Assembly (NCBI GenBank): GCA_945860335.1
Contig: CAMAQW010000002.1
Coordinates: forward strand, 1-37,943
Direction: 5' to 3'
Length of the DNA: 37,943 nt
Origin: Sediminibacterium ginsengisoli
GTDB lineage: Bacteria > Bacteroidota > Bacteroidia > Chitinophagales > Chitinophagaceae
The notes beneath the pieces were generated by a model. That model saw only the letters and a program-made list of their open reading frames with translations. It did not search any database and had not been told where the DNA came from. A program made the translations under genes and the position numbers. Positions 7,990 through 32,259 of this stretch are shown here, piece by piece. The first letter of the stretch is position 1. Every line of letters begins with the position of its first letter.

Positions 7990-8256
7990 GTGCCCTTTGC
8001 TGGGATGAGTTCGATTGAAATTGAGGCAGAATTGAATAAATTAATTTATCTGGAAATTAACTAAATCCTTCGTTCTGATTCCGATATCGATACAAATTTT
8101 AATTTGAAAATCAAGGACTTATGTTAAATCGGAGGCCCTTTGTTGTTTTTGCATAAGGTTTTCCATCCTTTTTTCTAAAATAGTTGCTATTTTTTTGGTA
8201 TGTATTAAGAAAAATGTGCTCTATCCTATTACGATTTAACTTGCTAATGCTAATTT

Positions 8257-8877: not shown

Positions 8878-8932
8878 TATGGTATGTTATTTATTTTTTT
8901 GTCTCTAGAACTTTAATAAGCTTTTATATTAT

Positions 8933-13479: not shown

Positions 13480-13516
13480 ATTATTGAAATATTTCTCCAT
13501 TACAAAATGTATTATA

Positions 13517-15457
13517 ATGAAATATCTTAGAAAATCAGTTCCTATTTTTACAGTATTTATTTTCTTAATAACCGTATCGTGCAATAAATTTTTAGAGCAG
13601 CCAAGCGGAAGTATCATTACTGTAGATTCTGTTTTTACTACTCCTGATGCTGCTCAAAGAGCACTTTGGAATGTATATGCTACTTGTGTTATCAATGGGT
13701 TTCCTACTGGAGATGGGGGTTCTGGGTTGAGCGATGCAGGTACTTTTGATGGTATGTTATTAGCAGCTAGTGATGAAGGCGATCAGTTTGGAGCTGGCGG
13801 TAGAGCTAATGCATTTAACGCAGGAACATGGGGACCTTCTTTTCAAGATGAATTTTCTTACAATCGAGTAACTATAGGCATGCGTAATGCGTGCATTTAC
13901 ATTGATAATGCAAATAAAGTTCCTTTGAGTAATACAGGATCGATTAATTGGACGGCTCAACTTAGAGATCAAACTATTGCTGAGGCTAAAATATTAAGGG
14001 CTTTGATGCATTATGAGGCTATGATTCGTTATGGTGGTATACCAATAATCGACCAAACTCCTGTTGTAAAAATCAACAATGTAAATGGAGTAAATCAAGC
14101 TCAAGTAATTCCTTCTGGAGCTAGAAGTAGTTTAAAGGCAACCATAGATTTTATTGTTAAAAGTTGTGATGAAGCAATACCTAGTTTGCCAGATAATTTT
14201 CCTGCTACAGATATCGGCAGAATAAATAAAGGTGTAGCACTTTCTTTAAAGGCTGTTACCCTATTATGGGCGGCAAGTCCTCTAGTAAACACAGCCACTC
14301 CTCCAGTTACAAGTGCAAATGATAGTCTTATTTGTATGGGTTCAAATGACCCTAATAGATGGACACTTGCAGCAAATGCACATAAAGTTGTTTTGGAATG
14401 GGCAATTAGTAATGGATATGCTTTACTTGATGATGGTGCACTTGGTAAAAGTGAAAGTTATAATTATGCTACTGGTGCTGCATTAGATCCAAGAAATAAA
14501 GAACTGATTTTTTATGATAAGTCACATGGACAACAAGCAGGAGGTGCAAATGTTGTAAGGTGGGGCTGTCCTATTTATTTTTCTTGGGGGAATACTGTAA
14601 TGGCTCTTCCTATGAATTTTATTATCAAAACATTTAGAGATATTGATGGTAATGACATTACAATTCCCATCAATGGAACATTTACACAGTTTAAATCAAT
14701 CATGAAAAAAATGGAACCACGCTTCAATGCAATAGCATGGTGGCCAGGTTCGGCATATACCAATACTGGATTAATGCCTGCTCAAGGTGGTAGCGACACT
14801 GCAAAATTTTTGTATAAACAAAAAGGGTTAACAGGAAATACAGTACAAATTGGAGCCGGTACTGCCTTAATTGGAAATGGAATCCCAAATGGCATTCACC
14901 AAAAGAAATTTATCAACTTAGTTAATCAGGTAAATGGTACCGCTAATTTTTATTGGCCAATATTTCGATTGGCAGAATTTTATTTGGGTTATGCTGAAGC
15001 ATTAAATGAAATAAACCCTACTAATCCTGAAATATTTACGGCCCTTAATGTTATTCGAAAAAGAGGCGGGTTGCCCAATTTAGCACCAGGCAATACAACT
15101 TATGCATCAATTTTTGGTGACAAAGTGAAAACTAGAGAATATATACAAAGAGAAAGGTCTGTTGAATTATATGGCGAAGAGCATAGATTTTTTGATGTTC
15201 GACGTTGGAAAATTGCAGGAAATGATGGGGTGATGAAAGGCACTTTTACACGAATATTTTTATACGAAAATAGCGCTGTATCTTATATAAATCCTACAGC
15301 CGCAATGACACCAGCTCAGCGTCTTGCAAATGACAATTCATTATCTTATCGGATTGAAACTTTTGAATCTCGTGTTTGGGAAGATAAAATGTATTTCTAT
15401 CCTTTTGCTCAAGGTGAGGTGAATAAAGGTTTTATTATACAAAACCCGGGCTGGTAA
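13517..15457 (+). CDS. SusD/RagB outer-membrane glycan-binding lipoprotein
   Basis: I place the start at ATG 13517 (MKYLRKSVPIFTVF), 17 codons inside the track ORF, because it gives a clean lipoprotein signal with lipobox TVSC just before NKFLEQP. The 646-residue protein has SusD hallmarks: NKFLEQPS, DAAQRALWNVYAT, the TPR-like LRALMHYEAMIRYGGIPII, the late RLAEFYLGYAEALNEI, ERSVELYGEEHRFFDVRRWK and a C-terminal QNPGW. It caps the SusC barrel and binds the glycan at the cell surface. The track start would place the first 14 nt inside the SusC gene. Confidence 0.93.
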   Translation: MKYLRKSVPIFTVFIFLITVSCNKFLEQPSGSIITVDSVFTTPDAAQRALWNVYATCVINGFPTGDGGSGLSDAGTFDGMLLAASDEGDQFGAGGRANAFNAGTWGPSFQDEFSYNRVTIGMRNACIYIDNANKVPLSNTGSINWTAQLRDQTIAEAKILRALMHYEAMIRYGGIPIIDQTPVVKINNVNGVNQAQVIPSGARSSLKATIDFIVKSCDEAIPSLPDNFPATDIGRINKGVALSLKAVTLLWAASPLVNTATPPVTSANDSLICMGSNDPNRWTLAANAHKVVLEWAISNGYALLDDGALGKSESYNYATGAALDPRNKELIFYDKSHGQQAGGANVVRWGCPIYFSWGNTVMALPMNFIIKTFRDIDGNDITIPINGTFTQFKSIMKKMEPRFNAIAWWPGSAYTNTGLMPAQGGSDTAKFLYKQKGLTGNTVQIGAGTALIGNGIPNGIHQKKFINLVNQVNGTANFYWPIFRLAEFYLGYAEALNEINPTNPEIFTALNVIRKRGGLPNLAPGNTTYASIFGDKVKTREYIQRERSVELYGEEHRFFDVRRWKIAGNDGVMKGTFTRIFLYENSAVSYINPTAAMTPAQRLANDNSLSYRIETFESRVWEDKMYFYPFAQGEVNKGFIIQNPGW

Positions 15458-15472
15458 ACATTAACTAATAAA

Positions 15473-18367
15473 ATGAATCTTATGGCTTTATATAATAATC
15501 TGCGTTGGTACTTATTGATTTCTTTTTTTGTAACGGCCTCCTTGAACTCGCTTAATGCGCAACGTTCGATTAATTTGGTAAATGATTCTGTTTTAATCAA
15601 AGACAATGATTTTAAAAACACTTTTATAGATCAAATTATTCAAGTTCCATTTGCTAACCGTGTTGAACGTAAATACATTACAAATTCGGTATCATCTGTG
15701 AGCGGCGAAAAATTAAAAAAAATCAATACACCGTTCCTTAGTAATACATTATTTGGCCAGTTAAGTGGTCTGCATGTACAACAAGGAGGTGGATCTCCTG
15801 GTAATACTGATTTTCCATCTTTATTTGTTAGAGGTAGGCAAACATTTCAAGATAACAGTGTATTGGTTTTAGTAGATGGTTTTGAATCTAATTGGTTCAC
15901 TTTACTTCCCGATGAAATTGAAAGCGTGACAGTACTTAAAGACGCGGCATCCCTGGCACAGTTTGGTATGGATGGCGCGAATGGCGTTGTAATGATTACA
16001 ACAAAACGGGGCGTTGAATCAAAAAAAACTAATATCAACTTCAGCTCTCGATTTGGCATTCATTCTGCTCGATATTTACCAAAATTAGTTAACAATGGAG
16101 ATTATGCTGAACTTTACAATGTAGGAATTGTCAATGACGGCCGATCAATTAGGGATGGTTATTTCAGAAACGATTCAATTGTTAATTTCTTCAAAAATCA
16201 ACAATATCCTTATTTGTATCCTGATGTTAACTGGTTTGATCAAGTTGTTCGTCCAAATGCATTAAGCCAAGATTATACTTTATCATTTACTGGAGGTAAA
16301 CAAGATGTAAAATATTTTCTTGCAATGGGGTATGCAGATTATAAAGGTTTATATGCCGGCACAGATAACGGCCGAACAACTAACACTAATTATAATCTTA
16401 AACGGTATAATCTAAGAGCCAACTTTGATGTTAATATTACTTCTTTCTTAAGTGCGCAAGCAAATCTTCGTGCCACTATGATGGATAAATATTTTCCTAA
16501 TACACCTGAAAATACTTTGTGGCGATCTATGTCATTGTTTACTCCTTATGCTGTAAAAACAGAACAAGGAAAATGGGGTGGCGCACAAGGATATGCCGAT
16601 AATCCTTCTGGTTCTATTTTACAACGTGGATTTCAGTCAATCAATGACCGTACAGTGGATGCAAATGTAAAGTTGATTGGTAATATGGATTTTATTACTA
16701 AAGGGCTTAAATTTTTCTGGCAATTAAACTTTAGCAATTTTTTCTTTGATACGTACAACAAAACAAGACCTTTGTACTTTGATGAAGTTACCCCTAGGCC
16801 AGATCTTGTTTCAACCCCTGGTGTTATTCCTTACGATATTTTCACAAGAGGAACAGTTGATAATAATTTTACAATTACTCAAGGGAACGGGAATCAGTTT
16901 AATAGAACCTCTTTATTAGGCGGAGCTGAATATGAAAATAAATGGAGTAAACATTCTTTATATTCATCTTTAATTTATTTCCAAGAAAAGTTTAATGGAG
17001 ATGGTTCTGATATGCCATTTGCCAAACAGCGCTTTATGGGAAGAGTAAGTTACAATTTTAATAAACGATATTTTGTCGATCTAAACGTTGCATATAGTGG
17101 ATCAGAAAATTTCCCTAAAGGTAACAGATTTGGCGTCTTTCCTGCGTTGTCTGCAGGTTGGGTAATGAGTAATGAAAAGTTTATGTCTAATCAGACATTC
17201 TTAAGTTTTCTAAAATTAAGAATGTCTGCAGGGTTACTGGGAAATGATAATACAGGTAATGCTGGTAGATTTATTTATAATCAGTATTATAATGGAACAG
17301 GTAACTATTTAATTGGTAATAATTTAGGTGTTAATGCTCCTATGTTTAACCAAAGTGCGCTTGCCAATCCAAATGTTACATGGGAAAAAGCTACAAGGTA
17401 TAATGTTGGGTTTGAATCAGTTATTTTGAAATCATTATCCTTATCAGCAGATTATTTTATTGAAAATCGCACCAATATATTTATTAACCCTAATAGTTAT
17501 GTTCCTTCTTTAATGGGTGCAACTTTTAGTAGTATCAATAGGGGAGAAACACGGACATCAGGCGCTGAGATTGAAATCATGTATAATCAAAAATTGGGTT
17601 CACTTAATTTTTATGCAGGTGGAAATGTATCATTCTCTCAAAATAAAATAATTGATATTGCAGAACCTGCCCCTTCAGACCCTTATTTAGCGGCAAAGGG
17701 CAATCCAATCAATCAGCCTTTTGTATTAGAGTTTTTAGGATTCTTTAAAGATCAAGCTGATATTGCTTCAAGCCCAACTCAATTATTTGGATCAGTTATG
17801 CCAGGAGATATTAAATACAAGGATCAAAATGGTGACGGTGTAATTGACAATAGAGACAGGAAAGCGTTTGGCTTAACTTCATTACCACAAATATTTTACG
17901 GTTTTAATGTAGGCGGTGATTATAAAGGACTTGACTTCAATATAAGTATTCAAGGAGCTGCAAAGAGAACAGTTTCTTTATTGGATAATAATATGATTAT
18001 TCCGTTCTTAAACGGTGGTGTAAAGCCTACACAATGGGTAAAAGACAATTATTGGACACCTACACGCGGTGATAATGCAAAATTCCCTCGTTTGACAACG
18101 ATACAAAATGATAATAACTATAGACAGTCAACATTATGGCAACGAAATGGTGCTTTTCTTAGAATCCAGAATATTGAAATCGGTTATACTATTTCTGAAA
18201 GAATTACAAAGAAAGCAGGGATGCATTCAATTCGTTTCTTTATTAGCGGTAACAATCTATTTACATTTGATAATATTCATGAAATCGATGTTGATCCTGA
18301 GGTTATGAATACTTTTGTTCATCCGCCAATGAAAAGTTTCAATTTTGGTTTTGCACTTAAATTATAA
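15473..18367 (+). CDS. Second SusC-like transporter, short N-terminus
   Basis: At 964 residues this is about 170 shorter than the first SusC. After the signal peptide (ending LNSLNAQ) it has only about 60 residues (SINLVNDSVLIKDNDF ... IIQVPFANRVERKYITNSV) before the plug (LSNTLFGQLSGLHVQQGGG, FVRGRQTF, DGANGVVMITTKRG). There is no STN domain, no carboxypeptidase-like domain and no canonical VVVVGYGT TonB box. The barrel looks complete, with the usual DGDGVIDNRDR-type loop near residue 780. Short SusC forms occur as second transporters in Bacteroidota PULs. It should form a transporter with the adjacent SusD (38 bp downstream), energised by TonB through an atypical box, but it is not expected to signal to FecR. 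Confidence 0.9.
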   Translation: MNLMALYNNLRWYLLISFFVTASLNSLNAQRSINLVNDSVLIKDNDFKNTFIDQIIQVPFANRVERKYITNSVSSVSGEKLKKINTPFLSNTLFGQLSGLHVQQGGGSPGNTDFPSLFVRGRQTFQDNSVLVLVDGFESNWFTLLPDEIESVTVLKDAASLAQFGMDGANGVVMITTKRGVESKKTNINFSSRFGIHSARYLPKLVNNGDYAELYNVGIVNDGRSIRDGYFRNDSIVNFFKNQQYPYLYPDVNWFDQVVRPNALSQDYTLSFTGGKQDVKYFLAMGYADYKGLYAGTDNGRTTNTNYNLKRYNLRANFDVNITSFLSAQANLRATMMDKYFPNTPENTLWRSMSLFTPYAVKTEQGKWGGAQGYADNPSGSILQRGFQSINDRTVDANVKLIGNMDFITKGLKFFWQLNFSNFFFDTYNKTRPLYFDEVTPRPDLVSTPGVIPYDIFTRGTVDNNFTITQGNGNQFNRTSLLGGAEYENKWSKHSLYSSLIYFQEKFNGDGSDMPFAKQRFMGRVSYNFNKRYFVDLNVAYSGSENFPKGNRFGVFPALSAGWVMSNEKFMSNQTFLSFLKLRMSAGLLGNDNTGNAGRFIYNQYYNGTGNYLIGNNLGVNAPMFNQSALANPNVTWEKATRYNVGFESVILKSLSLSADYFIENRTNIFINPNSYVPSLMGATFSSINRGETRTSGAEIEIMYNQKLGSLNFYAGGNVSFSQNKIIDIAEPAPSDPYLAAKGNPINQPFVLEFLGFFKDQADIASSPTQLFGSVMPGDIKYKDQNGDGVIDNRDRKAFGLTSLPQIFYGFNVGGDYKGLDFNISIQGAAKRTVSLLDNNMIIPFLNGGVKPTQWVKDNYWTPTRGDNAKFPRLTTIQNDNNYRQSTLWQRNGAFLRIQNIEIGYTISERITKKAGMHSIRFFISGNNLFTFDNIHEIDVDPEVMNTFVHPPMKSFNFGFALKL

Positions 18368-18405
18368 TCCCGCTATTTAAAATCGTCATTACTACAATTG
18401 ATGTT

Positions 18406-20205
18406 ATGAAAAAAAATATATTACTTATTATTGTATCCGCTATTTTCTTTTCTACTGCTTGTACAAAAAATCTTTTAGACACTCAAATACAGCAAAACTT
18501 TAGCGAGGATTTATTTTTGAATTCTGGACCTACAAATCTCAAAGCATTTGGTATGGGTGTTTATGACTATCTGCCACAGTTGAATAGATTTGGAGGCAAT
18601 GCCATATTGGCTGCAGGTTCTGACGAAGCTGATTATGCTCGATTTAATAATATTCAAAGGTTTAATGCTGGCGCTTGGGATCCATTTACAAACCCTGATG
18701 ATGTTTGGGCTAATTATTATCGTGGTATAAGACATGCAAATTTGTTTTTAGAAAAAACAAATGATTTTAGGAAACTAATTGTTGTTGATACTATCAATAA
18801 TAGAGCAAATTATATTTTAGATGTTGATGATTTTATTAAACTAAGAGCAGAGGTAAGATTTTTGCGTGCCTATTATTATATGGAGTTAATAAAACGTTAT
18901 GGTGGTGTTCCGATAGTTAAAAAAGTGCTTAGTCAAAATGAGGCATTTGGCGTAACTAGATCTACTTTTCAACAATGCGTTGACTATATTGTTGAACAAT
19001 GTGATTCTTCTTACGCAGATTTAACCAATCATTATATCAATTATGGCATACCCTCCGGACAAAGTATTGGAAGAGGTGATGCTGGCACTGATAATAATCG
19101 ATTAGGTAGAGTAGAAAAGCCTGCAGCAGTTGCGCTAAAATTGCGTGCATTGCTATTTGCAGCTAGCCCACTTAATAATCCTACAGGAAATGCATCACTT
19201 TGGCAAAAAGCTGCTGAAGCAGCCCAACAGCTATTTACAGATCCAAATTGTGCACATGTCAATTTTTTAAATTCATCCTATAAGGATTTATTTATGTCTC
19301 AAAATACCACCAATAATTTAACTCCACGTAAGGGAGCCAATTCTGGTATTATTTTATCTAGGCCATTTCAATTGAACTCTAACACTTTTGAAAGAGCAAA
19401 TTACCCGGTTGGGATGGTGAATGGAGGTGAAGGTGCGACCTGTCCATCACAAAACCTTGTTGATGCATTTGAGATGCGTACAACTGGTTTACCCATTTCT
19501 GATGTTGGTTCTGGATATGATTCAAATAATCCATATGCAAACAGAGATCAGCGTCTAGGTTGGATTGTTGTTTTAAATGGATCCTCAATGGGTTTGAACA
19601 ATAATAATACTGCTAGAATAGTTGAATCGTATACTGGCGGATCAGATGCAATAGGGTCTAAGGAAGGAGCTACTACAACAGGTTACTATTTAAGAAAATT
19701 TTGCGTTGAAAATTATAATCTTTCTTTAGCTGGTACAAGAGCAAAATCTTGGGTATTGATGCGATTTGCTGAAGTTCTGCTAAATTATGCTGAAGCTGCC
19801 AATGAGTCTTTTGGTCCTGATGCAAAGCCTGTATTAGGTGGAGCTGCAGCTGCTAGGTCTGCTAGAGAGGCTATTAATTTAGTTAGAGTTAGAGCTGGAC
19901 AGCCTGCTATCAATGCTGGAATAACTCAGGCCCAGTTAAGGGAAAGGATTCGCAATGAAAGAAGGGTGGAACTTGCCTTTGAGGAACATCGATTTTTTGA
20001 TGTTCGTAGATGGAAAATTGCAGAACAAACTGAAAATATTTCACTTGCTGGAATGCGGGTAAATGCTACAGGCCCTACTACATTTTCTTATCAAAGGTTT
20101 ACAGTTGAGCCTAGGGTATTTAGTTCTAAAATGTACTTATATCCAATTCCATTTTCTGAAATTGCAAAAAGTAACGGTTTGATTACACAAAATCCTGGGT
20201 GGTAA
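18406..20205 (+). CDS. Second SusD/RagB outer-membrane lipoprotein
   Basis: This 599-residue protein has a lipoprotein signal (lipobox STAC, then TKNLLDTQ), the SusD core (LRAEVRFLRAYYYMELIKRYGGVPIV), the late RFAEVLLNYAEAANES, RRVELAFEEHRFFDVRRWK and the C-terminal QNPGW. It partners the short SusC encoded just upstream. It differs clearly from the first SusD, so the two pairs probably handle different oligosaccharides or sizes released from one glycan. The gene ends 10 bp before the first lyase gene. Confidence 0.93.
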   Translation: MKKNILLIIVSAIFFSTACTKNLLDTQIQQNFSEDLFLNSGPTNLKAFGMGVYDYLPQLNRFGGNAILAAGSDEADYARFNNIQRFNAGAWDPFTNPDDVWANYYRGIRHANLFLEKTNDFRKLIVVDTINNRANYILDVDDFIKLRAEVRFLRAYYYMELIKRYGGVPIVKKVLSQNEAFGVTRSTFQQCVDYIVEQCDSSYADLTNHYINYGIPSGQSIGRGDAGTDNNRLGRVEKPAAVALKLRALLFAASPLNNPTGNASLWQKAAEAAQQLFTDPNCAHVNFLNSSYKDLFMSQNTTNNLTPRKGANSGIILSRPFQLNSNTFERANYPVGMVNGGEGATCPSQNLVDAFEMRTTGLPISDVGSGYDSNNPYANRDQRLGWIVVLNGSSMGLNNNNTARIVESYTGGSDAIGSKEGATTTGYYLRKFCVENYNLSLAGTRAKSWVLMRFAEVLLNYAEAANESFGPDAKPVLGGAAAARSAREAINLVRVRAGQPAINAGITQAQLRERIRNERRVELAFEEHRFFDVRRWKIAEQTENISLAGMRVNATGPTTFSYQRFTVEPRVFSSKMYLYPIPFSEIAKSNGLITQNPGW

Positions 20206-20215: not shown

Positions 20216-22324
20216 ATGAGATATGTTTTATGGAGTTTAATATTAATTATTATTAGTATAAGTTCATGTAAAAAAAAGGAAATAACACCAACTCCTCCAG
20301 TGGTAACAAATCCAATTACGCCTCCTACAACAGTTGGTGGTATTTTTAGTTCAACTGCTAAAATTCCTGTTAGCCCTAGTACTATCAGTGATTGTTTTAC
20401 TGGGATGAAAATGAAAGATATTCACCCTAGGCTACTATTTTCGTCATCTGAAATTGAACAAATTAAAATTTTGATTCAGTCGGACGCCTTTGCAAAAGCC
20501 ACTTATGATAATATCATTTCTCGAGCAAATAGTTTATTGACTTCACCAATATTAGGTTATGGATTAGATGGTGCAGGCTTAAGAATTACTAATATTCATA
20601 CATTTTCTAACAATCAGCTTCCATATTTAGTTTTAGCTTATCAGTTCACAAAAGATAGTCGTTATGCTGCTAGGTGCTGGCAGCAATTAGATGCAATGTG
20701 TTCTTGGCCTGATTGGGGTGCAAATAGACATTTTTTGGATGCTGGTATTGCAAGCAAAGGGGCAGGTATGGCCTTAGATGGCTTATTTGATTATTTAACC
20801 TCAGCTCAAAGACTAAGATTATACACAGCCATTAAAAATTTTGTTTTACAGCCCGGTAAAACTCAAATAGAAACAAATACAGGTGTTTGGAAATGGTATT
20901 TGTCTAACGATAATTGGAATGGCATTTGTCACGGAGGAATGATTATGGGTGCTCTTGCTGGATATGAATATGATTCAACTTTCAACGCTAATGTAATTGC
21001 TCAATGTGCCAATGGAATCAATAAATATATGCAATCACTTGAACCGGATGGGGCAAGTGAAGAGGGAATGTCATATTGGAGTTATGGTTTAATGAATACC
21101 TTTTTGGCTTTTGAGAGTTTAAAAAGATGTTTAAGTACAACTTATGGTTTAGCAGAAAATCCAGGATTTATTAAAACAGGTTGGTTTCCTTATTATATGT
21201 CTGGCCCTGTAGGGACAGCTTCCATTGGAGACGATTATTTATATGTAGGAAAATCCAATAAATTTTTATCATACTTCTGGTTTTCAAAATATTTTAAAAA
21301 TTCTGGGTTAGCAAAATCTCATTTTGATGCTTGCATGTCAGTGAATGCATTAGATGCTGAAAAAATGAATGGATGGACGGATTTGCTTTTTTATGATAAA
21401 TCACTTGTTTCACAGGGCAGTTCATCTAGTTTGCCCTTATCGGGCTACTTAAAAGGAATTGATTACATGTATCTGTTAGAAAATACTAGTAGTGACAATT
21501 CTTTATATGTAGGAATGCATGGCGGTGATAATAGCGCTAGCCATGGTCATTTGGATGCAGGAAGTTTTTATGTGCAAGCGCTTGGGGAAACATGGGCGCA
21601 GGGAAATCTTGGGCTAGAATCGCCATATCCACAAGACTATTTTAATATCACTTCTCCTTTGTATACAGCTGCACCAACAAACTTAGCAGTTAGTAGTGGC
21701 AGGTTTTACTATTATCGAGTTAGGTCAGAAGGAAAAAATTGTCTTGTTTTTAATCCTGATGCTAGACCAGATCAAAATCCTTCTGGTGCAGTTAATGTTA
21801 TAGGAAGTGCTAACGATAATGTAGGTGGTTTTTACATAGCAGATTTACAAAAATGCTATAGTAAGGATGTTTCATTATATCGACGTGGGATTAAATTAAA
21901 TAGGAATAGCGGTATAGTAAGTGTTCAAGATGAATTTATTCCGTCAATTGATAATTCAACTGTGTATTGGATTATGCATAGTCCGGCAACAGATGGGCTA
22001 GTGATAAGTAATGATGGCAAAATTGCCACCATGATTAAAAATGGTAAAACTTATTATGCTGTAATTAAATCTCCTTCAAATGCTGTATTTGAAAAAGTAG
22101 ATAGATCTACCAGTCAGGTTAATTATTTATCAGAAACAGCTTCGATTTTTTCCAACATGATGTCGGGGAAAAATTCTATCAATCAATGGTATGGTAAACT
22201 TCAAATAAAATTAACTGGTTTAGTCAAAGCCGCTCCTGTAACTATAAGAGTTGATTTTGTTAAAAATAATTTAGCAGTAACGCCACCCTTAGTTAACTTA
22301 ACATCTTGGTCAACCATTAACTAA
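20216..22324 (+). CDS. Heparinase II/III-like polysaccharide lyase lipoprotein (lyase 1)
   Basis: This 702-residue protein has a lipoprotein signal with Cys near 18 (SISSC), then a Pro/Thr-rich linker. The alpha-toroid domain runs from about 65 to 375 (IHPRLLFSSSEIEQI, WPDWGANRHFLDAGI) and a heparinase II/III-type beta-sandwich follows (SHGHLDAGSFYVQALGE onward). The toroid-sandwich layout matches the PL12/PL15/PL17/PL21 group of uronate lyases. Expected catalytic positions are Tyr near 287 (EEGMSYWSYG) and His near 443 (SHGHLD). At the usual Asn-His site the sequence is SNDNWNGIC, so aspartate replaces histidine. It is probably anchored to the outer membrane and acts early on polymer. The PL family number cannot be assigned by eye. 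Confidence 0.82.
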   Translation: MRYVLWSLILIIISISSCKKKEITPTPPVVTNPITPPTTVGGIFSSTAKIPVSPSTISDCFTGMKMKDIHPRLLFSSSEIEQIKILIQSDAFAKATYDNIISRANSLLTSPILGYGLDGAGLRITNIHTFSNNQLPYLVLAYQFTKDSRYAARCWQQLDAMCSWPDWGANRHFLDAGIASKGAGMALDGLFDYLTSAQRLRLYTAIKNFVLQPGKTQIETNTGVWKWYLSNDNWNGICHGGMIMGALAGYEYDSTFNANVIAQCANGINKYMQSLEPDGASEEGMSYWSYGLMNTFLAFESLKRCLSTTYGLAENPGFIKTGWFPYYMSGPVGTASIGDDYLYVGKSNKFLSYFWFSKYFKNSGLAKSHFDACMSVNALDAEKMNGWTDLLFYDKSLVSQGSSSSLPLSGYLKGIDYMYLLENTSSDNSLYVGMHGGDNSASHGHLDAGSFYVQALGETWAQGNLGLESPYPQDYFNITSPLYTAAPTNLAVSSGRFYYYRVRSEGKNCLVFNPDARPDQNPSGAVNVIGSANDNVGGFYIADLQKCYSKDVSLYRRGIKLNRNSGIVSVQDEFIPSIDNSTVYWIMHSPATDGLVISNDGKIATMIKNGKTYYAVIKSPSNAVFEKVDRSTSQVNYLSETASIFSNMMSGKNSINQWYGKLQIKLTGLVKAAPVTIRVDFVKNNLAVTPPLVNLTSWSTIN

Positions 22325-22345
22325 TTGTAATAATTTATTTAATAA

Positions 22346-24145
22346 ATGATCATGCAAAAGATTGGTACTTTATTTGTTACACTCTTTTTTATATTAAGTG
22401 CTTATTCGCAACAAAGTGAGCTTCCTTATTGGAATCGAAATACACAATTGATTCCATGGCGTCTAGTGCCCAGTATTTCAAATTGTATCCATATTGATTT
22501 AGATAAAGACGGCAATCCGGATATCTTAAAGGCATTTTTAAATGATTCCATTCCAATTTTATGGATTGATGATGATGATGACATGAAATGGGAAGATAAG
22601 GAAGGCGATACTGACAATGATTGCTTGCTTATTGATAAAAATAAGGACGGTGTTTTTGCTGGCCCCTTTGACTTTAGTATCGATTGGATTGATGAAGATC
22701 ATGATGGTAAAGCAGATATTCAATTAATTGTAAATAATGCAGGAACAAAAGTTAGAAATTATTTTGATTGGGGTGCTGATTTTATGTATGTGTTGGATGT
22801 AGACAAAGACCAGATAATGCATTATGTAGATTGGAATAAAATCATGATGCGGGCATGGGAGCATTACGGCCACGCTAACTTTTACAAAGATTATAGTGGC
22901 AATTCTACCTTTCTAAAAATGCATGCTTCTAGTTTTCGTATTAGTGATCTTAGATTTAATTGGGAGAATCCATTTATTTTTTATGATACAGACAAGGATG
23001 GGTTAACAGAATGGGCCATACGTTTAGTTGATACTCCTGTTTTTAGAGATAGTGCCAATAATAAAAAAAATGGTTTCAATTTAATTGATTCTAGTTTGGA
23101 TGTTCAGTTCACAAAAAAAATAGATTATGCTGCAGTTACTTGGGACTTGGATAATGATAATAGTGCAGGTAATGAATTTGATTTTGATATGAGTTTGCTG
23201 TTTAAAGGAAAAGGATTTTCTTATGAAGACCAGGGCCATCAATTCAAAGGATTGAGAGGTCTTGCAGCTGCAAATAGTTTTATGTACGATAGCCGTTGGC
23301 GCAATATTGATACACTTTTTTATCCGGATAGAGACACTGCGTATCAAATGATCTTTAAAAAAGGCGATTGGCAGCAATGCCGCTTGGTATTTGATGAAGA
23401 TGATGATTGCAACAGATGGGAAAGGGTTGAATTTTATGATCCACTCGATTTTTGGAAAACAGGGATAGAAGGTGGAGGCCTTGATAATAATGGACAGTCA
23501 GACGCAGTAGGGGACAGGGGTGAGTTTGATATGGATAATTCGGGGAAAGGAAAATTGTATATAGGTGCTTTTGACGGACGTATTCATTTATATGGAGCGG
23601 AATGGGGCGGATGGCGAATTGATCAAACCGCATTTTCCTACCAGGGTTTTGGAGGCTTTTATGAAAAATGGAATCGTAAAAGATTGCAATTAATGCCAGA
23701 AAAATTTGCGAGTGTAAAATATGAAGACAGTGATGGAAATGGGTTTATAGATCAAATACTCTATGACCTAGATGGTGATCATTTATTTGAAGATTCAGTA
23801 TCACTTATAAAATTAAAAATACCTGATCAAAGTAAAATTATAGAAAGCTCAAATATGAATTATGGAAGTTTTTCTTCTCTTTTTAGAGATATAACTGAGA
23901 AAAACTGGAGTAGGGCATTGTTGGCGATTGAGGTAGCGGAAAAGTATAAAATAAACACTACATGGTATTCATTTTATAAACAACCTCATTCATTGCATGA
24001 AAAATACGATTATTCATTTTGGTTAAACTATTACATTTATCAAGATATTAGATACCAAGCTAGAATTAGCAATGATTTTAAATTATTAGAAATAGTTGAT
24101 AAAGCTTATTACTCGGGTGATTGGGGTAGGTTAATCGATTATTAA
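22346..24145 (+). CDS. Secreted Asp-rich protein of unknown function with Ca-loop-like repeats
   Basis: I do not recognise this 599-residue family. A signal peptide (ending SAYSQ) is followed by many acidic loops of the DxDxDG type: DLDKDGNPD (about 51-59), DDDDDMKWED, DKNKDG, DEDHDGKAD (116-124), DVDKDQ, DTDKDGLTE (about 214-222) and later DSDGNGFID and DLDGDHLFED. Such loops usually bind calcium, as in FG-GAP/VCBS, dockerin-like or thrombospondin-3 repeats. Between them are aromatic-rich segments (WEHYGHANFYKDYSG, RFNWENPFIFYD, GAEWGGWRIDQ) that could form a binding or active surface. The gene sits tightly between the two lyase genes, 21 bp after one and 11 bp before the other, so it very likely acts on the same glycan as a binding protein, a lyase/hydrolase of a new family, or a lyase partner. 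The ATG two codons later is an equally good start. Confidence 0.6.
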   Translation: MIMQKIGTLFVTLFFILSAYSQQSELPYWNRNTQLIPWRLVPSISNCIHIDLDKDGNPDILKAFLNDSIPILWIDDDDDMKWEDKEGDTDNDCLLIDKNKDGVFAGPFDFSIDWIDEDHDGKADIQLIVNNAGTKVRNYFDWGADFMYVLDVDKDQIMHYVDWNKIMMRAWEHYGHANFYKDYSGNSTFLKMHASSFRISDLRFNWENPFIFYDTDKDGLTEWAIRLVDTPVFRDSANNKKNGFNLIDSSLDVQFTKKIDYAAVTWDLDNDNSAGNEFDFDMSLLFKGKGFSYEDQGHQFKGLRGLAAANSFMYDSRWRNIDTLFYPDRDTAYQMIFKKGDWQQCRLVFDEDDDCNRWERVEFYDPLDFWKTGIEGGGLDNNGQSDAVGDRGEFDMDNSGKGKLYIGAFDGRIHLYGAEWGGWRIDQTAFSYQGFGGFYEKWNRKRLQLMPEKFASVKYEDSDGNGFIDQILYDLDGDHLFEDSVSLIKLKIPDQSKIIESSNMNYGSFSSLFRDITEKNWSRALLAIEVAEKYKINTTWYSFYKQPHSLHEKYDYSFWLNYYIYQDIRYQARISNDFKLLEIVDKAYYSGDWGRLIDY

Positions 24146-24156: not shown

Positions 24157-26061
24157 ATGATAAATACACTATTTAAGTATATTTTAAATATTGGTTTTCT
24201 TTTTTTTGCGAATGATAGTTTAGCCCAAAATTCCAATTTCACTCCAGTAACTGCTAAAATGATCCAGGAGCGTTTGAGTGTTTCTGAAGTAGTGAATATT
24301 CATCCTCGTTTATTTTTTTCACAAGATGATATTCATAGAATAAGAAAATTAAACGAACAAGGCGATACACTTATTCATATTGGATATTTACAAAATCAAA
24401 TTGAAGCAAGTAAAATATTAAAAGAACCATTACTTAGTTATTATTTAGATGAAGCAAAATTAAGAGTACCCTCTATACATAAATTTGCTGTCCAGTTGCC
24501 TCATTTGGTTATGATGTACCAATTAACTGGTGATACATCATTTGCCCGTCGAATCGTCAACCAATTCAAAAAATTAAATGATTTTCCTGATTGGGGTGCA
24601 AATAGACATTTTTTAGATGCAGGAATTGGGGGATTTGATTTTGCTCTAGCATATGATGCATTATATGCGTTTCTAACTGCCGAAGAAAAAAAAATGATGA
24701 GAAGTGCCGTTTTAAAGAACGTGCTAATTCCAGGAAAAGAACAACTGCAAAAGAAAATCTGGTGGTCTACTGCGAATCATAATTGGAATGGGATATGTAA
24801 TGGGGGAATTATCATGGCTGCTTTATCTATGTATGAAGAAGATCCAAAGGAAATGAGTGAAATTATTGCTTTAGCAATTAATGCGCTGCCGAAATATATT
24901 CAATCATTTGATCCTGATGGCCAGAGTGATGAAGGTTTAATGTATTGGGGGTATGGGTTAATGTACACAACAATTGCAATGGAAAGTATGCAGAGGGTTT
25001 TAGGTACTTCATTTGGGTTAGATCAGTTTACAGGATTTAAGAAAACAGGCTGGTTTCCTGCATTTGTATCAGGACCGGTTAGTAGTTTAAATATTGGCGA
25101 TGATCCAATAAAAAATGGGAAAAGTCGCACTTTTTTCTGGTTTGCTAAAAACAATAATGATACTGCTTTAGCAAAAATGCAATATGATTTATGTAAAGAA
25201 ACAAATGAAATGAATTGGATGGACATGTTATATTATAATCCTAAAATGGTTACATCTAATTTAAAGAATAATATTCCATTAGAGAATCACATACATGGTA
25301 TAGAACTTATGTCTTTGAGAAGTGGTTGGGACAATAATGCTTCATTTATTTCATTGCATGGTGGATATAATAATGCCAATCATGGGCATTTAGATGCAGG
25401 AAGCTTTGATTTGCAAGCTAACGGTGAAATTTGGGCTTATGGCAATCTTGGCCGAGACGAATATACATATCCAGGGTATTTTTCTAAAACAACATTGCCA
25501 TCTTATGTAGATACAAATTTGACTCAATCTGATGCAGGTAGGTGGCATTTTTATCGTTTAAGGGCGGAAGGGAAAAATTGTTTAGTTTTCAATCCAACTG
25601 TAAGGCCGGATCAGAACGAGATGGGTATTGCTACTTTGTTAAATAAGAATATTGGAATTAACGAAAGTTCTTTTACAATTGATTTAACTAATTGTTATAC
25701 TCGAGATGTTTCTTCTTATACCAGGAAAATTCTTTTAAATAAATCTACAACTGCTATGACTGTTAAAGATGAGTTTGTTTCTAAAGATACTTCTATAGTT
25801 TGGTGGGGTATGCATACCAAGGCAGATATTACTATTCGGCCTGAATCAAATTCTGCTTTGCTGCAGCAGAATGGAAAAAAAATGCTTGTTACCATTAAAA
25901 GTCCATCTAATGCGGTGTTTCAAGTTTTAGATGCATCCTATTTGCCAGATGAGTTATTCCCTTTTACTAGAAATTCACTAAACGTAGGGTTTAAAAAATT
26001 AGCTATTCATTTGCCAAAAGTATTATTTGAAAAAATTGAAGTTATTTTCCAACCTCAATAA
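24157..26061 (+). CDS. Heparinase II/III-like polysaccharide lyase (lyase 2)
   Basis: This 634-residue protein has an ordinary signal peptide (ending SLAQ) and no lipobox, so it is periplasmic or secreted. It is a clear paralogue of lyase 1: IHPRLFFS, FPDWGANRHFLDAGIG, DEGLMYWGYG and NHGHLDAGSFDLQA align directly. Here the catalytic set looks complete: N207-H208 (ANHNWNGICNGG), Y263 and H409. The spacings (H to Y 55, Y to H 146) are close to those of heparinase II and PL17 alginate lyase as I recall them. It probably degrades oligosaccharides imported after cleavage by lyase 1. The substrate is a uronic-acid-containing glycan; more cannot be said. Confidence 0.83.
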   Translation: MINTLFKYILNIGFLFFANDSLAQNSNFTPVTAKMIQERLSVSEVVNIHPRLFFSQDDIHRIRKLNEQGDTLIHIGYLQNQIEASKILKEPLLSYYLDEAKLRVPSIHKFAVQLPHLVMMYQLTGDTSFARRIVNQFKKLNDFPDWGANRHFLDAGIGGFDFALAYDALYAFLTAEEKKMMRSAVLKNVLIPGKEQLQKKIWWSTANHNWNGICNGGIIMAALSMYEEDPKEMSEIIALAINALPKYIQSFDPDGQSDEGLMYWGYGLMYTTIAMESMQRVLGTSFGLDQFTGFKKTGWFPAFVSGPVSSLNIGDDPIKNGKSRTFFWFAKNNNDTALAKMQYDLCKETNEMNWMDMLYYNPKMVTSNLKNNIPLENHIHGIELMSLRSGWDNNASFISLHGGYNNANHGHLDAGSFDLQANGEIWAYGNLGRDEYTYPGYFSKTTLPSYVDTNLTQSDAGRWHFYRLRAEGKNCLVFNPTVRPDQNEMGIATLLNKNIGINESSFTIDLTNCYTRDVSSYTRKILLNKSTTAMTVKDEFVSKDTSIVWWGMHTKADITIRPESNSALLQQNGKKMLVTIKSPSNAVFQVLDASYLPDELFPFTRNSLNVGFKKLAIHLPKVLFEKIEVIFQPQ

Positions 26062-26080
26062 TCATAATTTATTTATTAAA

Positions 26081-28057
26081 ATGTGTAAAATCAAAACAGT
26101 AAATAATTATTTCAAAAAGTTATTTTTAAGTACATATTTTTTCATTTGCTTTTCAGGTATTTCTCTAAATGCCCAACTTAAAGTAGCGGGTATTTTTGGT
26201 GATAATGCTATTTTGCAGAGAAATATTGCTATTCCGGTTTGGGGAAGTGCAACCCCTAATTCTAAAATAGCTATTTATATTGGTGTAAATCGGGTACAAG
26301 TAATATCTGATAGTGTAGGCAAATGGAAGGCCTATTTACCATCAATGTATGCTGATGGCAAATCTTATGAATTAAAGATTATTTCAGAAAATGATACCAT
26401 TAACTATAAAAATATAATGATAGGAGATGTTTGGTTGGCTTCAGGTCAATCTAATATGGAATATCGGATGGGGTCTGATTTGTTGAATAAAGATGTTGAA
26501 ATCAATAATGCAAATTATCCGTCCATAAGATTTCGTATAGTTGATAATGTTACATCTATTGTACCAATTAGTGATATTGTTCAAAAGGAATGGAAGATCT
26601 GTAACTCAAATAACATTTCCTCATTTTCAGCAGTATCTTATTTTTTTGCACGGGCTCTTTATCTTGATCAAAATATACCTGTAGGAATTATAGTAGCTTC
26701 AAGAGGTGCTACAGGAATTGAAACTTGGATGAGTAAAGAATCGCTAGCAGCGAACCCAGATTTTACGGCCTTATTAAACAGCCGAAATGAAGACTCAGTA
26801 AATTGGAGTCAGTATGTAAAAAAATCGCTACAATTAGAATTAGATAGATCTGTTATTGCTAAAACGTCCTTTCAAGGCGTTAAAATAGGTGCCACTCAGG
26901 TTGGTTATAATGATTCTGCATGGTCGAAAACGAACTTTCCATTAAGCTCAATAAAAATGGGTTATGGCAGTTATTGGGGTCTAATTTGGTTTCGGAAGTC
27001 TTTTACAATAAACGACACAGCCTCCATAAATATGGATAGTCTATTTCTTCCATTAAATGATCAAAACGATCACGTGTATATTAATGGTGTTGAAGTAGCA
27101 ACGAATGTTTCTAAGTTGAAAAATAAAACTATAAAAATTCCGTCAGGGCTGATAAAACTTGGTATGAATGTATTATCAATACGTATGTATGTTAATTGGG
27201 GTACTGCTGATATTGGTGACCGATATACAAATAGTTATTTTAAAAATACCTCAGGCGAAAAAATCATATTGGATAAAGAATGGTTACATAATAATGCAAT
27301 TGAACCAGCTGTTGCTGGTTGGCAAGATTATTATAATAAAGCTACAGTTAATTATAACGGAATGATAAACCCTATAATTCCATTCGGAATTAAAGGGTTT
27401 ATATGGTACCAAGGTGAGAATAATGCTTCTAAATGGAGACAATATACTGCTTTACAAAATAGGTTAATTAAGGATTGGCGGAAGTATTGGAATCTTGGAG
27501 ATATTCCGTTTTTATTTGTTCAATTAGCAAGTTTTAAATCCAGATCTGAGGTTCCGCTTAATGATGATGATTGGGCGCAGTTTCGTGACGCACAAAAAGG
27601 TACTTTGTTGACTTCAACAAATACAGCCATGGCTACTACTATCGATATTGGTGATGAATTTAACATTCACCCTGCCAATAAACAAGATGTTGGCTATAGG
27701 CTTTACCAGGCTGCAAGGCAGCATGTATATCATCTAAATGTTATTGGTACGGGTCCAACTTTTAAATCTGCTTTTACAGAAGAGAGTCATGTAAGGATTT
27801 CTTTTGACAATATTGATGGTGGATTACTAAATAAAGGCAACAGCCTTGTACAAAATTTTGCACTTGCTGATTCAACTGGCAAGTGGTTTTGGGCCGATGC
27901 TTTTATTGATGGACAAACTATTTATGTACACTCTAAATATGTTCTACATCCCGTTCGAGTTCAATATGCTTGGCAATCTAATCCTATAGCAACTCTTTAT
28001 AATAAGGAAGGACTTCCAATGATTCCTTTCAATGAAAAAGTTGTTCAATTAAAATAA
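26081..28057 (+). CDS. Sialate O-acetylesterase-like SGNH esterase
   Basis: I prefer ATG 26081 (MCKIKTVNNYFKK) to the track start at 26027, because it gives a normal signal peptide (ending GISLNAQ) and avoids overlap with lyase 2. The 658-residue protein has the family's early IFGDNAILQR and VWGSA, the nucleophile block GDVWLASGQSNMEYRM (Ser near 124), WYQGENNAS and the late catalytic DEFNIHPANKQDVG. A beta-sandwich, galactose-binding-like segment (YNDSAWSKTNFP ... WGLIWFRKSF) is inserted in the middle, which is normal for this family. The enzymes remove acetyl esters from sugars; in PULs lacking sialidases they act on plant or microbial glycans. There is no sialidase here, so sialic acid is not the likely target. 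Confidence 0.88.
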   Translation: MCKIKTVNNYFKKLFLSTYFFICFSGISLNAQLKVAGIFGDNAILQRNIAIPVWGSATPNSKIAIYIGVNRVQVISDSVGKWKAYLPSMYADGKSYELKIISENDTINYKNIMIGDVWLASGQSNMEYRMGSDLLNKDVEINNANYPSIRFRIVDNVTSIVPISDIVQKEWKICNSNNISSFSAVSYFFARALYLDQNIPVGIIVASRGATGIETWMSKESLAANPDFTALLNSRNEDSVNWSQYVKKSLQLELDRSVIAKTSFQGVKIGATQVGYNDSAWSKTNFPLSSIKMGYGSYWGLIWFRKSFTINDTASINMDSLFLPLNDQNDHVYINGVEVATNVSKLKNKTIKIPSGLIKLGMNVLSIRMYVNWGTADIGDRYTNSYFKNTSGEKIILDKEWLHNNAIEPAVAGWQDYYNKATVNYNGMINPIIPFGIKGFIWYQGENNASKWRQYTALQNRLIKDWRKYWNLGDIPFLFVQLASFKSRSEVPLNDDDWAQFRDAQKGTLLTSTNTAMATTIDIGDEFNIHPANKQDVGYRLYQAARQHVYHLNVIGTGPTFKSAFTEESHVRISFDNIDGGLLNKGNSLVQNFALADSTGKWFWADAFIDGQTIYVHSKYVLHPVRVQYAWQSNPIATLYNKEGLPMIPFNEKVVQLK

Positions 28058-28083: not shown

Positions 28084-30951
28084 ATGTCATTAAATAAAGT
28101 AAATATAAATAGCTTATTCATAATCATTTCTTTTAGTTTTATTGTCTCATCAAAAAGCTTTGCTCAAAGTAAATTAAATTTCGGTTTAACCAGGCAGCAA
28201 CCATCTGCAACGTTGCCAGTTGGATTATCAAAATATGATATCCCGCAGAAAAAAAGTAAAACTGTTATTCTAACTAAACTTAAAAAAAATTCACAAGGCG
28301 ATTATTTATTAGATAGCGGTTGGGAGTTAGCCGAAAATAATATTGTCACTTCTAATACTCAATCCATTTTTTCTCAAGTTTATAATTCTACTAATTGGTA
28401 TAATGCTGTAGTGCCAGGTACAGTATTGACATCCTTGGTCAAAGAAGGTATTTATCCCGATCCTTATATTGGCTTAAATAATAGAGCAATTCCAGATGAT
28501 CTATGTAGGAAGGGTTGGTGGTATAGAATTTCGTTTTCTGCACCTGAAGAAGATAACAATAAATTGGTTTGGTTAAAATTAAATGGGATTAACTATAAGG
28601 CTGATATTTGGCTTAATGGAAAATTATTAGGCACAATGAAAGGAGCTTTTGTTAGAGGGAATTTTGATATTACAAGTCTTATGGATAAAAGCAAAAAAAA
28701 TATTCTTGCAATTCATATTTATCCGCCACCTAATCCTGGTATCCCTCATGAACAATCTAAGTTATCTGGTATGGGCCCCAATGGTGGCCAGCTAACATTG
28801 GACGGGCCCACTTTTATTTCCTCTGAAGGTTGGGATTGGGTTCCTGGCATTCGTGATAGGAATATTGGAATATGGCAGGATGTTCAACTTCATTATACTA
28901 GGGCAGTTACTTTATCCAATCCACAAGTAATTACTGATCTTCCTTTGCCAGACACTTCTTCAGCTGAAATTACTATTAAAGTAGGGGTAAAAAATAATAG
29001 CAACATGGAACAGTCCATATTAGTGAAAGGAGCCATCGGTAAGATGAGTGTGGAAAAGCGAGTTAAGTTAGCAGCAGGCGAAAATCAACAAGTTATATTT
29101 TCTCCTGCAACCCACCCTTCATTGCGATTGGTTCAACCAAAACTTTGGTGGCCCAATGGTTATGGTAATCCTTCATTGTATCAACTGGCATTGACGGTTA
29201 CGGATAACAATAATCGCATTTCTGATGAACAACAGGTTCGTTTTGGTATTCGTGAATTTTCTTATGAAATGATGATCGATGCACCTCAAAAAAAGGGTTG
29301 GCGGGTTGCCTATAGTCCAACTGATGTAAAAGAAAAAAAGCCCATATTTGATAATGTTAAGCGTAGGGACTTTGAGAATAAAATATTCATTCCATCTTTA
29401 AGAGAAGGGGTTGATACCAGTATTTTTCAAACAATATCACAAAGCAATAATCCTTTCCTAGTCATAAAAGTAAATGGACAATCTGTTTTTTGTAGAGGAG
29501 GAAATTGGGGAATGGATGATGCAATGAAAAAAGTATCCAGAGAGCAATTGGAGCCATCCTTTCGATTACACAAAGAGGCTAACTATAACATGGTTCGAAA
29601 CTGGACTGGTGAATGTACTGAGGAAACATTTTTTGAATTGGCTGATGAATACGGAATGTTAGTTTGGAATGATTTCTGGATTTCTACTGAAGGGTATAAT
29701 TTGAATCCTTTAGATCAACAACTGTTTTTAGAGAACAGTTTTGAAACAATCCGTCGTTTTCGTAACCATCCTTCTATTGCTATTTGGTGTCCTCGCAATG
29801 AAGGGTATGCTCCGGTTGGTATTGAAGATGAGTTGTACCAGCAATTGATGGAGGAAGATGGTACACGGCATTATAATGGCAATTCTCGGGAAATCAATCT
29901 GCGTCAAAGCGGAGACTGGCACTATATTCAAGACCCTGCACTTTACTTTACTAAATATGCAGAAGGATTTAGCACAGAAATAGGTACTTTTTCTATTCCG
30001 GTTGCTACTACGCTAAAGAAATTTATAAAACCTGCAGATCAATGGCCAATTAATGATGTATGGCATTATCATGATTTACATTCAAACAATCAAAATCTTT
30101 ATGGCTATCTAGGTGCCGTAGATAGTTTATATGGCAAGGCTAACGGAATTGATGAATTTTCTAGGAAAGTACAGATGGTCAATTATGATAGTCATCGTGC
30201 CATGTTTGAAGCATGGAACAGTAAAATGTGGGATAGAGCTAGTGGTGTTTTATTGTGGATGACACATCCTGCATGGCCCAGCATGATCTGGCAAACGTAC
30301 TCATGGGATTTTGAAACGCATGGTTCCTATTTTGGTGCCATGAAGGCCTGCGAGCCGGTGCATGTACAAATGAATTTGCATGATAATAAAGTTATTGCGG
30401 TTAATAGTACCTTGCAAAGTTACCAATCTGTAAATTTAATTTTTTCGGTTATCGATTTAAATGGAAAAATACTTTTTACAACTACTAAAAAAACAGACTT
30501 GCTTCAAAATAGCAAGACTGAATTATTTACACCGGATTTGGTTGGTATTAATTTACCTCAAGTGTATATGGTAAGATTGCAATTAAACGCTTTAGATGGT
30601 AAAGTATTATCGACGAATGAATATTGGAAATCAAATAAGGAAACCGGTAATTTTCTCGCTTTTAATAAGCTGTCAAATGTCTCATTAAATATTTACAAAA
30701 CCGGTTTAAATAATGGGAATACTGTATTAAGTATAGAAAATAAATCTAATACACCTGTTGTTGGGTTAAAGTTGAATCTAACAGATTTAAAAAATAATAT
30801 CATACTTCCTGCTTATTTTAGTGATGGATATTTTACTTTAATGCCTTCAGAAAAGCGTTTGATTGATGTAAGATATTCTGGAAATATGGATAACCTAAAA
30901 GTACGAACTGAGGCATACAACAGCCTACCAACTTTCCATCCAATAAATTAA
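28084..30951 (+). CDS. Glycoside hydrolase family 2 enzyme (exo-beta-glucosaminidase/mannosidase-like)
   Basis: This 955-residue exported protein has a GH2 sugar-binding domain (about 60-270; GWWYRISFS, LNGINYKADIWLNGKLLG), an immunoglobulin-like domain (about 275-395), a TIM barrel starting near NGQSVFCRGGNWGMDD, and C-terminal beta domains. The opening and the barrel block resemble exo-beta-D-glucosaminidases and beta-mannosidases more than LacZ-type enzymes. The acid/base candidate is E573 in IWCPRNEGYAP, where most GH2 enzymes have G-N-E and this one has R-N-E. The nucleophile candidate is E632 in GFSTEIGTF. It should release a terminal sugar from lyase products in the periplasm. The gene ends 6 bp before the CE7-like gene. 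Confidence 0.87.
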   Translation: MSLNKVNINSLFIIISFSFIVSSKSFAQSKLNFGLTRQQPSATLPVGLSKYDIPQKKSKTVILTKLKKNSQGDYLLDSGWELAENNIVTSNTQSIFSQVYNSTNWYNAVVPGTVLTSLVKEGIYPDPYIGLNNRAIPDDLCRKGWWYRISFSAPEEDNNKLVWLKLNGINYKADIWLNGKLLGTMKGAFVRGNFDITSLMDKSKKNILAIHIYPPPNPGIPHEQSKLSGMGPNGGQLTLDGPTFISSEGWDWVPGIRDRNIGIWQDVQLHYTRAVTLSNPQVITDLPLPDTSSAEITIKVGVKNNSNMEQSILVKGAIGKMSVEKRVKLAAGENQQVIFSPATHPSLRLVQPKLWWPNGYGNPSLYQLALTVTDNNNRISDEQQVRFGIREFSYEMMIDAPQKKGWRVAYSPTDVKEKKPIFDNVKRRDFENKIFIPSLREGVDTSIFQTISQSNNPFLVIKVNGQSVFCRGGNWGMDDAMKKVSREQLEPSFRLHKEANYNMVRNWTGECTEETFFELADEYGMLVWNDFWISTEGYNLNPLDQQLFLENSFETIRRFRNHPSIAIWCPRNEGYAPVGIEDELYQQLMEEDGTRHYNGNSREINLRQSGDWHYIQDPALYFTKYAEGFSTEIGTFSIPVATTLKKFIKPADQWPINDVWHYHDLHSNNQNLYGYLGAVDSLYGKANGIDEFSRKVQMVNYDSHRAMFEAWNSKMWDRASGVLLWMTHPAWPSMIWQTYSWDFETHGSYFGAMKACEPVHVQMNLHDNKVIAVNSTLQSYQSVNLIFSVIDLNGKILFTTTKKTDLLQNSKTELFTPDLVGINLPQVYMVRLQLNALDGKVLSTNEYWKSNKETGNFLAFNKLSNVSLNIYKTGLNNGNTVLSIENKSNTPVVGLKLNLTDLKNNIILPAYFSDGYFTLMPSEKRLIDVRYSGNMDNLKVRTEAYNSLPTFHPIN

Positions 30952-30957: not shown

Positions 30958-32259
30958 ATGAATTCTGCAATTAAAAAATCAATATTACTAGTAATAGTTT
31001 CTCTTTCTTTTTTCTTTCAATTGTATGCTCAACCTACTGAACAGCCGATTAAGTTATTGATAACCCCTAATCATCAAAATTGGCAATGTAAAGTTGGTGA
31101 CTTATCCAATTTCAAAATTATTGTAATGATAAATGGAGTTGCAATTAAAAATGCAAAGATTTTTTATCAAATAGGGCCTGAGAGAATGAAACCGTTTATT
31201 AGTGACTCTATCCGAACATCTGACACAGGTTTTATGACACCAAGTTGTACAATGAAAGAACCTGGTTTTCTCCGATGTATTGTTACTACTACTTGGCAAA
31301 ATAAGCAGTATAAAAATCTAGTAACTATAGGATATGATATCGAAAAGATAATGCCTACTGTTACAAAGCCAAATGATTTCGATGCATTTTGGCAAAAAGC
31401 GAAAGAAGATTTAAGTAAAATTCCAACAGATGCACGATTAACCTTGTTGCAGGATAAAAGTACTTCATTGACTAATGTGTATCATGTAAGCTTGCAAAAT
31501 TATGGGTCTTCAAAACTTTATGGGATTTTATGTGTGCCAAAGAAGTCAGGTAAATACCCGGCTATTTTACAAGTTCCAGGAGCAGGAATCAGGCCTTATT
31601 TCCCAGATCTTGAAATGGCGGATAAAGGCTTTATTGTTTTTACAATAGGGATTCATGGAGTACCAGTAAATATGGATCAGGCAGTTTATAATGATTTAAA
31701 CAATGGAGCTTTAAAAGGCTATTTTTTCTTCAATGCAAATAATAGAGATAATTTTTATTACAAGAGAGTATATATGGGTTGTATTCGAGCCAACGATTTT
31801 ATTACTAGTCTTCCTGAGTTTGATGGCAAAAATCTTGCAGTAAGCGGAAATAGTCAGGGTGGAGCTTTAAGTATTATAACAGCAGCCATTGATGATAGAG
31901 TAAAATATTTAGCGTCAGTACATCCTGCATTATCAGATATGTCCGGGTATCTCCATGAACGTGCTGGAGGATGGCCGCATATATTCGCTCCCAATAACCT
32001 TTGGTTTAGTAATGATACTTTTGTAAAACAAACTATGCCTTACTACGATGTGGTTAATTTTGCCAAAAATGTAAAAATACCAGGGTATTATACATGGGGA
32101 TTTAATGATGAAACTTGCCCGCCAACATCAATGTATGCAGCATATAATGTTATTAAGTCAACAAAAGAAACCGCTGTATATCAAGATTCTGGTCATTGGA
32201 TGTATGCAGAGCAGAAGCAGGCTTTTAATAATTGGATTATTAAAATGTTGGCTAAATAA
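30958..32259 (+). CDS. CE7-like acetyl xylan esterase / alpha-beta hydrolase
   Basis: This 433-residue protein has a signal peptide (ending QLYAQ), an N-terminal beta domain (about 28-125) and an alpha/beta hydrolase domain. The catalytic triad is visible: S299 in SGNSQGGALS, D384 in GFNDETCPPTS and H413 in DSGHWMYAEQ. These, with FDAFWQKAKEDL and KLYGILCVPK, match the acetyl xylan esterase/cephalosporin deacetylase (CE7) family. It should remove acetyl groups from oligosaccharides, complementing the SGNH esterase two genes upstream. It is the last gene of the PUL, and its stop codon lies inside the 16-bp stem of a terminator hairpin. Confidence 0.87.
   Translation: MNSAIKKSILLVIVSLSFFFQLYAQPTEQPIKLLITPNHQNWQCKVGDLSNFKIIVMINGVAIKNAKIFYQIGPERMKPFISDSIRTSDTGFMTPSCTMKEPGFLRCIVTTTWQNKQYKNLVTIGYDIEKIMPTVTKPNDFDAFWQKAKEDLSKIPTDARLTLLQDKSTSLTNVYHVSLQNYGSSKLYGILCVPKKSGKYPAILQVPGAGIRPYFPDLEMADKGFIVFTIGIHGVPVNMDQAVYNDLNNGALKGYFFFNANNRDNFYYKRVYMGCIRANDFITSLPEFDGKNLAVSGNSQGGALSIITAAIDDRVKYLASVHPALSDMSGYLHERAGGWPHIFAPNNLWFSNDTFVKQTMPYYDVVNFAKNVKIPGYYTWGFNDETCPPTSMYAAYNVIKSTKETAVYQDSGHWMYAEQKQAFNNWIIKMLAK

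Follow-up and report, generated by a model that had tools for sequence, protein, structure and literature searches.

A conserved, unnamed protein family of PULs, encoded between two PL35-like lyases in Sediminibacterium ginsengisoli

The gene at 22346..24145 (+ strand) of the window, by which we mean the whole 37,943-nucleotide stretch of Sediminibacterium ginsengisoli DNA that was analysed, encodes a member of a real, PUL-linked protein family that has no name in Pfam or NCBIfam. We refer to the gene and its product as Q, and we put the chances at about even that Q is a periplasmic, Ca2+-stabilised and probably catalytic protein that acts on acidic, ester- or sulfate-decorated oligosaccharides.

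The window contains a compact PUL on the + strand, which runs from an ECF sigma factor through an AXE1 esterase (8257 to 32259). The ECF sigma factor (8257-8877, +) and a FecR-type anti-sigma factor (8933-10072, +) are its likely regulators. Two tandem SusC/SusD pairs are present in this one PUL (10087-20205), and the SusC and SusD sequences are distinct between the pairs: the first consists of a SusC of 1130 aa (10087-13479, +) and its SusD (13466-15457, +), the second of a SusC of 964 aa (15473-18367, +) and its SusD (18406-20205, +). Lyase 1 (20216..22324, +), Q and lyase 2 (24157..26061, +) come next, and are followed by a SASA-type carbohydrate esterase (26027..28057, +), a GH2 exo-glycosidase with Ig_GlcNase and mannosidase-Ig domains (28084..30951, +), and the AXE1-type acetyl esterase (30958..32259, +). 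The coordinates given for the SASA esterase are those of the longest ORF, whose TTG start lies inside lyase 2; translation more probably begins at an ATG within this ORF. A serine recombinase with Resolvase and Recombinase domains (34690-36375) lies approximately 2.4 kb past the PUL and may be a sign of mobility.

The genes that flank Q had been called as polysaccharide lyases in the original prediction, and both match solved PL35 structures by PDB sequence comparison, with E values against 8khv, 8khw and 9o3q that range from 1e-49 to 1e-28. Lyase 1, which carries DUF4962 and a Hepar_II_III C-terminal region, matches 8khv (E=7.3e-43), and lyase 2 matches 8khw (E=1.6e-49) and 9o3q (E=5e-42); by sequence, both can be named as PL35 (GAG/uronate lyases). 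Because its N-terminus includes a lipobox-like ISSC (by eye), lyase 1 is probably a surface lipoprotein; lyase 2 has an SPI-type leader (by eye). Characterised PL35 lyases have hyaluronan, chondroitin and heparan sulfate (GlcA-containing GAGs) as substrates, and one cuts polymannuronate alginate (PMC11262172). Given the PL35 identity of both lyases, the target of the PUL is probably an acetylated, GlcA-like uronate polymer, an assignment that names the class rather than the exact polymer.

Q is an intact ORF of 599 aa that begins with ATG and sits between the two lyases with gaps of 21 bp and 11 bp, exactly as was originally described. In the closest relatives (loci L002, L003 and L029) a sulfatase gene is found between lyase 1 and Q, where the window has only the 21 bp (22325-22345), which suggests that a desulfation step has been gained or lost. 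The protein consists of a signal peptide (approximately residues 1-22), a body rich in beta structure that bears 11 or more Asp-rich loops of the Ca2+ type (44-486), and a C-terminal helical hairpin (506-597). At least ten acidic loops had been predicted, and we located 11 separate sites (residues 51, 75, 88, 97, 116, 151, 214, 267, 350, 461 and 474) as well as an extra variant loop at residue 395. These loops are not a simple product of composition: Q contains 14 DxDxD-like pentamers against 2.6 +/- 1.7 expected (5000 shuffles of the Q protein, maximum 11), and 6 DxDxDG-type hexamers against 0.33 expected (5000 shuffles, maximum 4). Judging from the loop pattern, they probably bind Ca2+.

Consistent with the prediction that Q is secreted, its N-terminus has a signal-peptidase-I-like leader and, as in the homologue N-termini that we inspected, lacks the lipobox Cys of SusE/F-type surface glycan-binding proteins (leader and lipobox were judged by eye and pattern). 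The periplasm is its probable location. A conserved-looking aromatic block had also been pointed out, and this block, WEHYGHANFYKDYSG at residues 171-185, is conserved in fact: across 43 homologues there is no change at W171, F179, D182, Y183 or G185, and almost none at H173 or G175.

The family was unrecognised in the original prediction and remained so in our searches. Q matched no Pfam family at E<=1 and no NCBIfam family, where the sole match was a chance one of 13.7 bits, and in neither database was there a sequence match to a known polysaccharide lyase or glycoside hydrolase family. Against PDB sequences, the single sequence yielded no matches and a 43-sequence profile yielded one chance match only (E=0.71). 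A described family with the features of Q was not found in the open-licence literature. We considered the distant homologue at L080 as a bridge from Q to known structures, and rejected it when it gave no credible match.

A scan of 84,980 species genomes identified Q homologues at 45 loci, 33-88% identical to Q. Most are in Bacteroidota, including Pedobacter, Chitinophagaceae, Parabacteroides, Bacteroides stercorirosoris, Maribacter and Mariniflexile, and two are in Planctomycetota. The distribution is sparse and patchy: Q is present in 2 of 394 other sampled Bacteroidia genomes, in 10 of 125 and 4 of 201 genomes of the families to which genomes G107 and G315 belong, and in 3 of 294 genomes from the phylum of the Planctomycetes locus L042 (query genome counted).

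Nearly all 45 loci are PULs, which contradicts the possibility that homologues lie mostly outside them; only L025, on a 5-kb contig, and L031, in which an alpha/beta-hydrolase adjoins Q, are without a PUL-type label. We counted the genomic company of Q over 49 loci, with genes labelled by seed searches and the labels supported by Pfam scans. SusC is present in 21 and SusD in 19, a sulfatase in 15, SASA in 12, GH2 in 9, AXE1 and BD-FAE in 5 each, and GH92 in 4; PL8, PL6, GH29, GH95 and others were also found, with fucosidases and GH38 among the partners. It had been asked whether homologues always sit beside heparinase II/III-like genes. They do not, and we rejected such genes as obligatory neighbours: a PL35/heparinase-type gene or domain occurs in only 18 of the 49 loci, whereas elsewhere the partners are PL8, PL6, GH92, GH2, fucosidases, esterases or sulfatases. 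Partnership with PL35 is mainly a feature of the clade of Q to which the window belongs. In some loci no lyase was seen.

Several other genes in these loci are worthy of mention. L043 encodes an FGE-type sulfatase-maturation enzyme (PF03781; 6931-7968) beside a sulfatase and Q in a PUL. A conserved PUL protein of about 417 aa, with no Pfam or PDB match, is encoded upstream of Q at L033 (5218-6468) and has relatives in 8 loci. In L018 (1928-3559) and L023 (4534-6165) a sodium:solute symporter-family transporter is directly 5' of Q, with SASA 3' of Q.

Q is mostly a stand-alone protein, yet its domain is also fused to several types of enzyme: to PL35 and SASA in L013, to AlgL/HepII_III lyases in L026 and L040, to a HepII_III lyase in L074, to a sulfatase in L024, and to a BD-FAE esterase in L028 and L032. 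The PL35 lyases (GAGases) are thus both operon neighbours and a fusion partner of Q, though unrelated to it in sequence. In L078 and L080 the Q domain is joined to DUF4861 (PF16153), a separate C-terminal domain (the C-terminal half of the L080 protein) that does not match Q itself; because of these fusions the two probably act in common pathways. We found no paper on DUF4861 in the open-licence literature. Because the fusions are scattered over the Q tree, in which some deep forks are weakly supported, several of them look independent.

Sequence conservation provides the main argument for a catalytic role. Across 43 homologues, with identity down to 35%, 68 alignment columns are invariant. 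R226, R357, E359, R391, E393, Y405 and H414, which lie outside the loops, are invariant even when distant relatives are included; together with W358 they are kept in the far subfamily L080/L093, which also retains the main loop aspartates. (L080 encodes two distant Q-like proteins, at 6548-9130 and 13227-14000, in one locus with SusC/SusD; the two share approximately 54% identity along their length, and by Pfam scan it is the first that is fused to DUF4861.) Where a locus retains orthologous partners, the conservation of Q exceeds that of lyase 2 in 8 of 8 cases, lyase 1 in 6 of 7, GH2 in 7 of 7, AXE1 in 5 of 5 and SASA in 4 of 4, and is below that of SusC/SusD.

We obtained AlphaFold2 models of Q (pLDDT 87.3, pTM 0.86) and of a Planctomycetes homologue that is 37% identical to it (pLDDT 82.6, pTM 0.83). 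The two models have a common strand order and both end in the C-terminal helical hairpin. Confidence in the Q model is lowest in loops 173-179 and 433-443 (pLDDT below 50), and the equivalent stretches are also of low confidence in the Planctomycetes model. These loops contain or adjoin conserved residues and would fit a reading as mobile substrate loops.

On the catalytic proposal, a PL35 lyase at the cell surface would cleave a uronate-containing polysaccharide that is acidic and acetylated, and the fragments would enter the periplasm through the SusC/D pairs. There, Q would work on them alongside the other PL35 lyase, both esterases and GH2. Its reaction would most likely be of the exo type, either a cleavage or an elimination, and would take place at or close to the uronyl end or the residue next to it; for this Q would use R226, R357, E359, R391, E393, Y405 and H414 along with the two conserved, putatively mobile loops. 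It is conservation that points to catalysis here, as Q matched no catalytic family or fold by sequence or structure, and two features call for caution: much of the conservation is in the Ca2+-type loops and could be structural, and a carbohydrate-binding module would likewise be found fused to enzymes of several types. With so varied a set of partners (PL35, PL8, PL6, GH92, GH29, GH38), a single narrow substrate is also less likely.

These same features bring us to the main rival, which excludes an enzyme: that Q has no catalytic role and instead serves as a Ca2+-dependent glycan-binding protein or scaffold, holding acidic oligosaccharides in place for lyases, sulfatases and esterases, which would explain its fusion to several of them. 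Q resembles carbohydrate-binding modules and surface glycan-binding proteins in its modular association with several enzymes; it is attached at either end of unrelated enzyme types, its acidic loops extend across the whole protein, and the lack of a matching catalytic family is as a binding module would have it. However, approximately 570 residues, 68 invariant positions and conservation above that of the neighbouring enzymes would be unusual for such a module, Q is without the lipobox of typical surface glycan-binding proteins, and the invariant Arg/Glu/Tyr/His residues lie outside the loops. Conservation above the partner enzymes and this residue set favour an enzyme over a binding module, without amounting to proof, and we consider the latter somewhat unlikely.

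A special case of the enzyme proposal is that Q is a new enzyme for removing unsaturated or terminal uronyl residues, filling the role of GH88/GH105 or of a uronate dehydratase on lyase products. There is precedent for overlooked enzymes at this step, since GH154 members have been recast as uronate dehydratases (PMC12269599) and P29_PDnc is another new enzyme for the uronyl end (PMC8511951); along with the GH88/GH105 hydrolases, these are possible functional analogues of Q, which has no Pfam match to GH88 or to any other family. The PUL in the window has PL35 lyases and no GH88/105, which was found in only three retrieved Q loci (L022, with weaker matches in L019 and L081), and a genome search of G1015 and G1017, which bear Q and PL35, gave no GH88/105 match at all, although these genomes may be incomplete. 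As a control, we examined 10 PL35 loci lacking Q, and GH88/105 was present in 2 of them; because it is also missing beside PL35 in the other 8, its rarity in Q loci does not discriminate, and the elimination argument drawn from it is weak. Moreover, 20 of 22 Q-bearing genomes have GH88/105 elsewhere, L022 has both Q and GH88/105 in one locus, and some Q loci show no lyase. We judge this specific role to be improbable, as a particular form of the enzyme proposal.

A further alternative concerns the fold and is compatible with either an enzyme or a binder: Q may be a divergent FG-GAP/VCBS-like Ca2+ beta-propeller, such as a PL11-like lyase, that was missed by Foldseek. Like the FG-GAP/VCBS Ca2+ repeats (PF13517) and the PL11 propellers, Q is secreted and beta-rich, with repeated DxDxDG-type loops between short strands, and the Q regions of L028 (E=0.021) and L078 (E=0.0015, below cut-off) have marginal FG-GAP_3 matches. 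Propeller proteins also appear, with beta-meander proteins, among the weak, sub-threshold Foldseek matches, for which the rmsd is mostly above 12 A. In contrast to these families, Q has no Pfam match and has a C-terminal helical hairpin. Neither confident model had a PDB match at E<=0.001, although a regular propeller would be expected to match many entries; the best TM-scores were approximately 0.1-0.15 by query length, and the matches that contained propellers had an rmsd above 14 A with a TM of approximately 0.1. One model was also compared with viral structures, where there was no significant match. A beta-propeller, the fold suggested for checking in the original prediction, was therefore not recovered. 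The search results do not support a recognisable regular beta-propeller, may indicate a new fold, and leave the divergent propeller a slim chance.

That Q is dispensable cargo or a spurious ORF with no role in the PUL, for which its patchy occurrence might speak, is contradicted by an intact gene that is conserved across phyla, tightly packed in an operon and repeatedly fused to enzymes, and we give it practically no credence.

Taking the enzyme proposal to its full extent, we would suggest tentatively, and with less than even confidence, that Q founds a new family of carbohydrate-active enzymes whose Ca2+-laced beta fold is also new, and which acts on uronate-containing oligosaccharides in the PULs of Bacteroidota and Planctomycetota and is repeatedly fused to lyases, sulfatases and esterases. 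PULs are read through the enzymes that are recognised in them, and where they serve acidic, esterified or sulfated glycans, the recurrence of an unnamed family leaves a step of the pathway blank. An enzymatic role for Q would fill that step and add a CAZyme family, perhaps a fold, and a tool for trimming uronate-containing oligosaccharides; as a binding module, Q would stand out for its size and conservation. The invariant residues and the partnership with PL35 make the question of its function directly testable.
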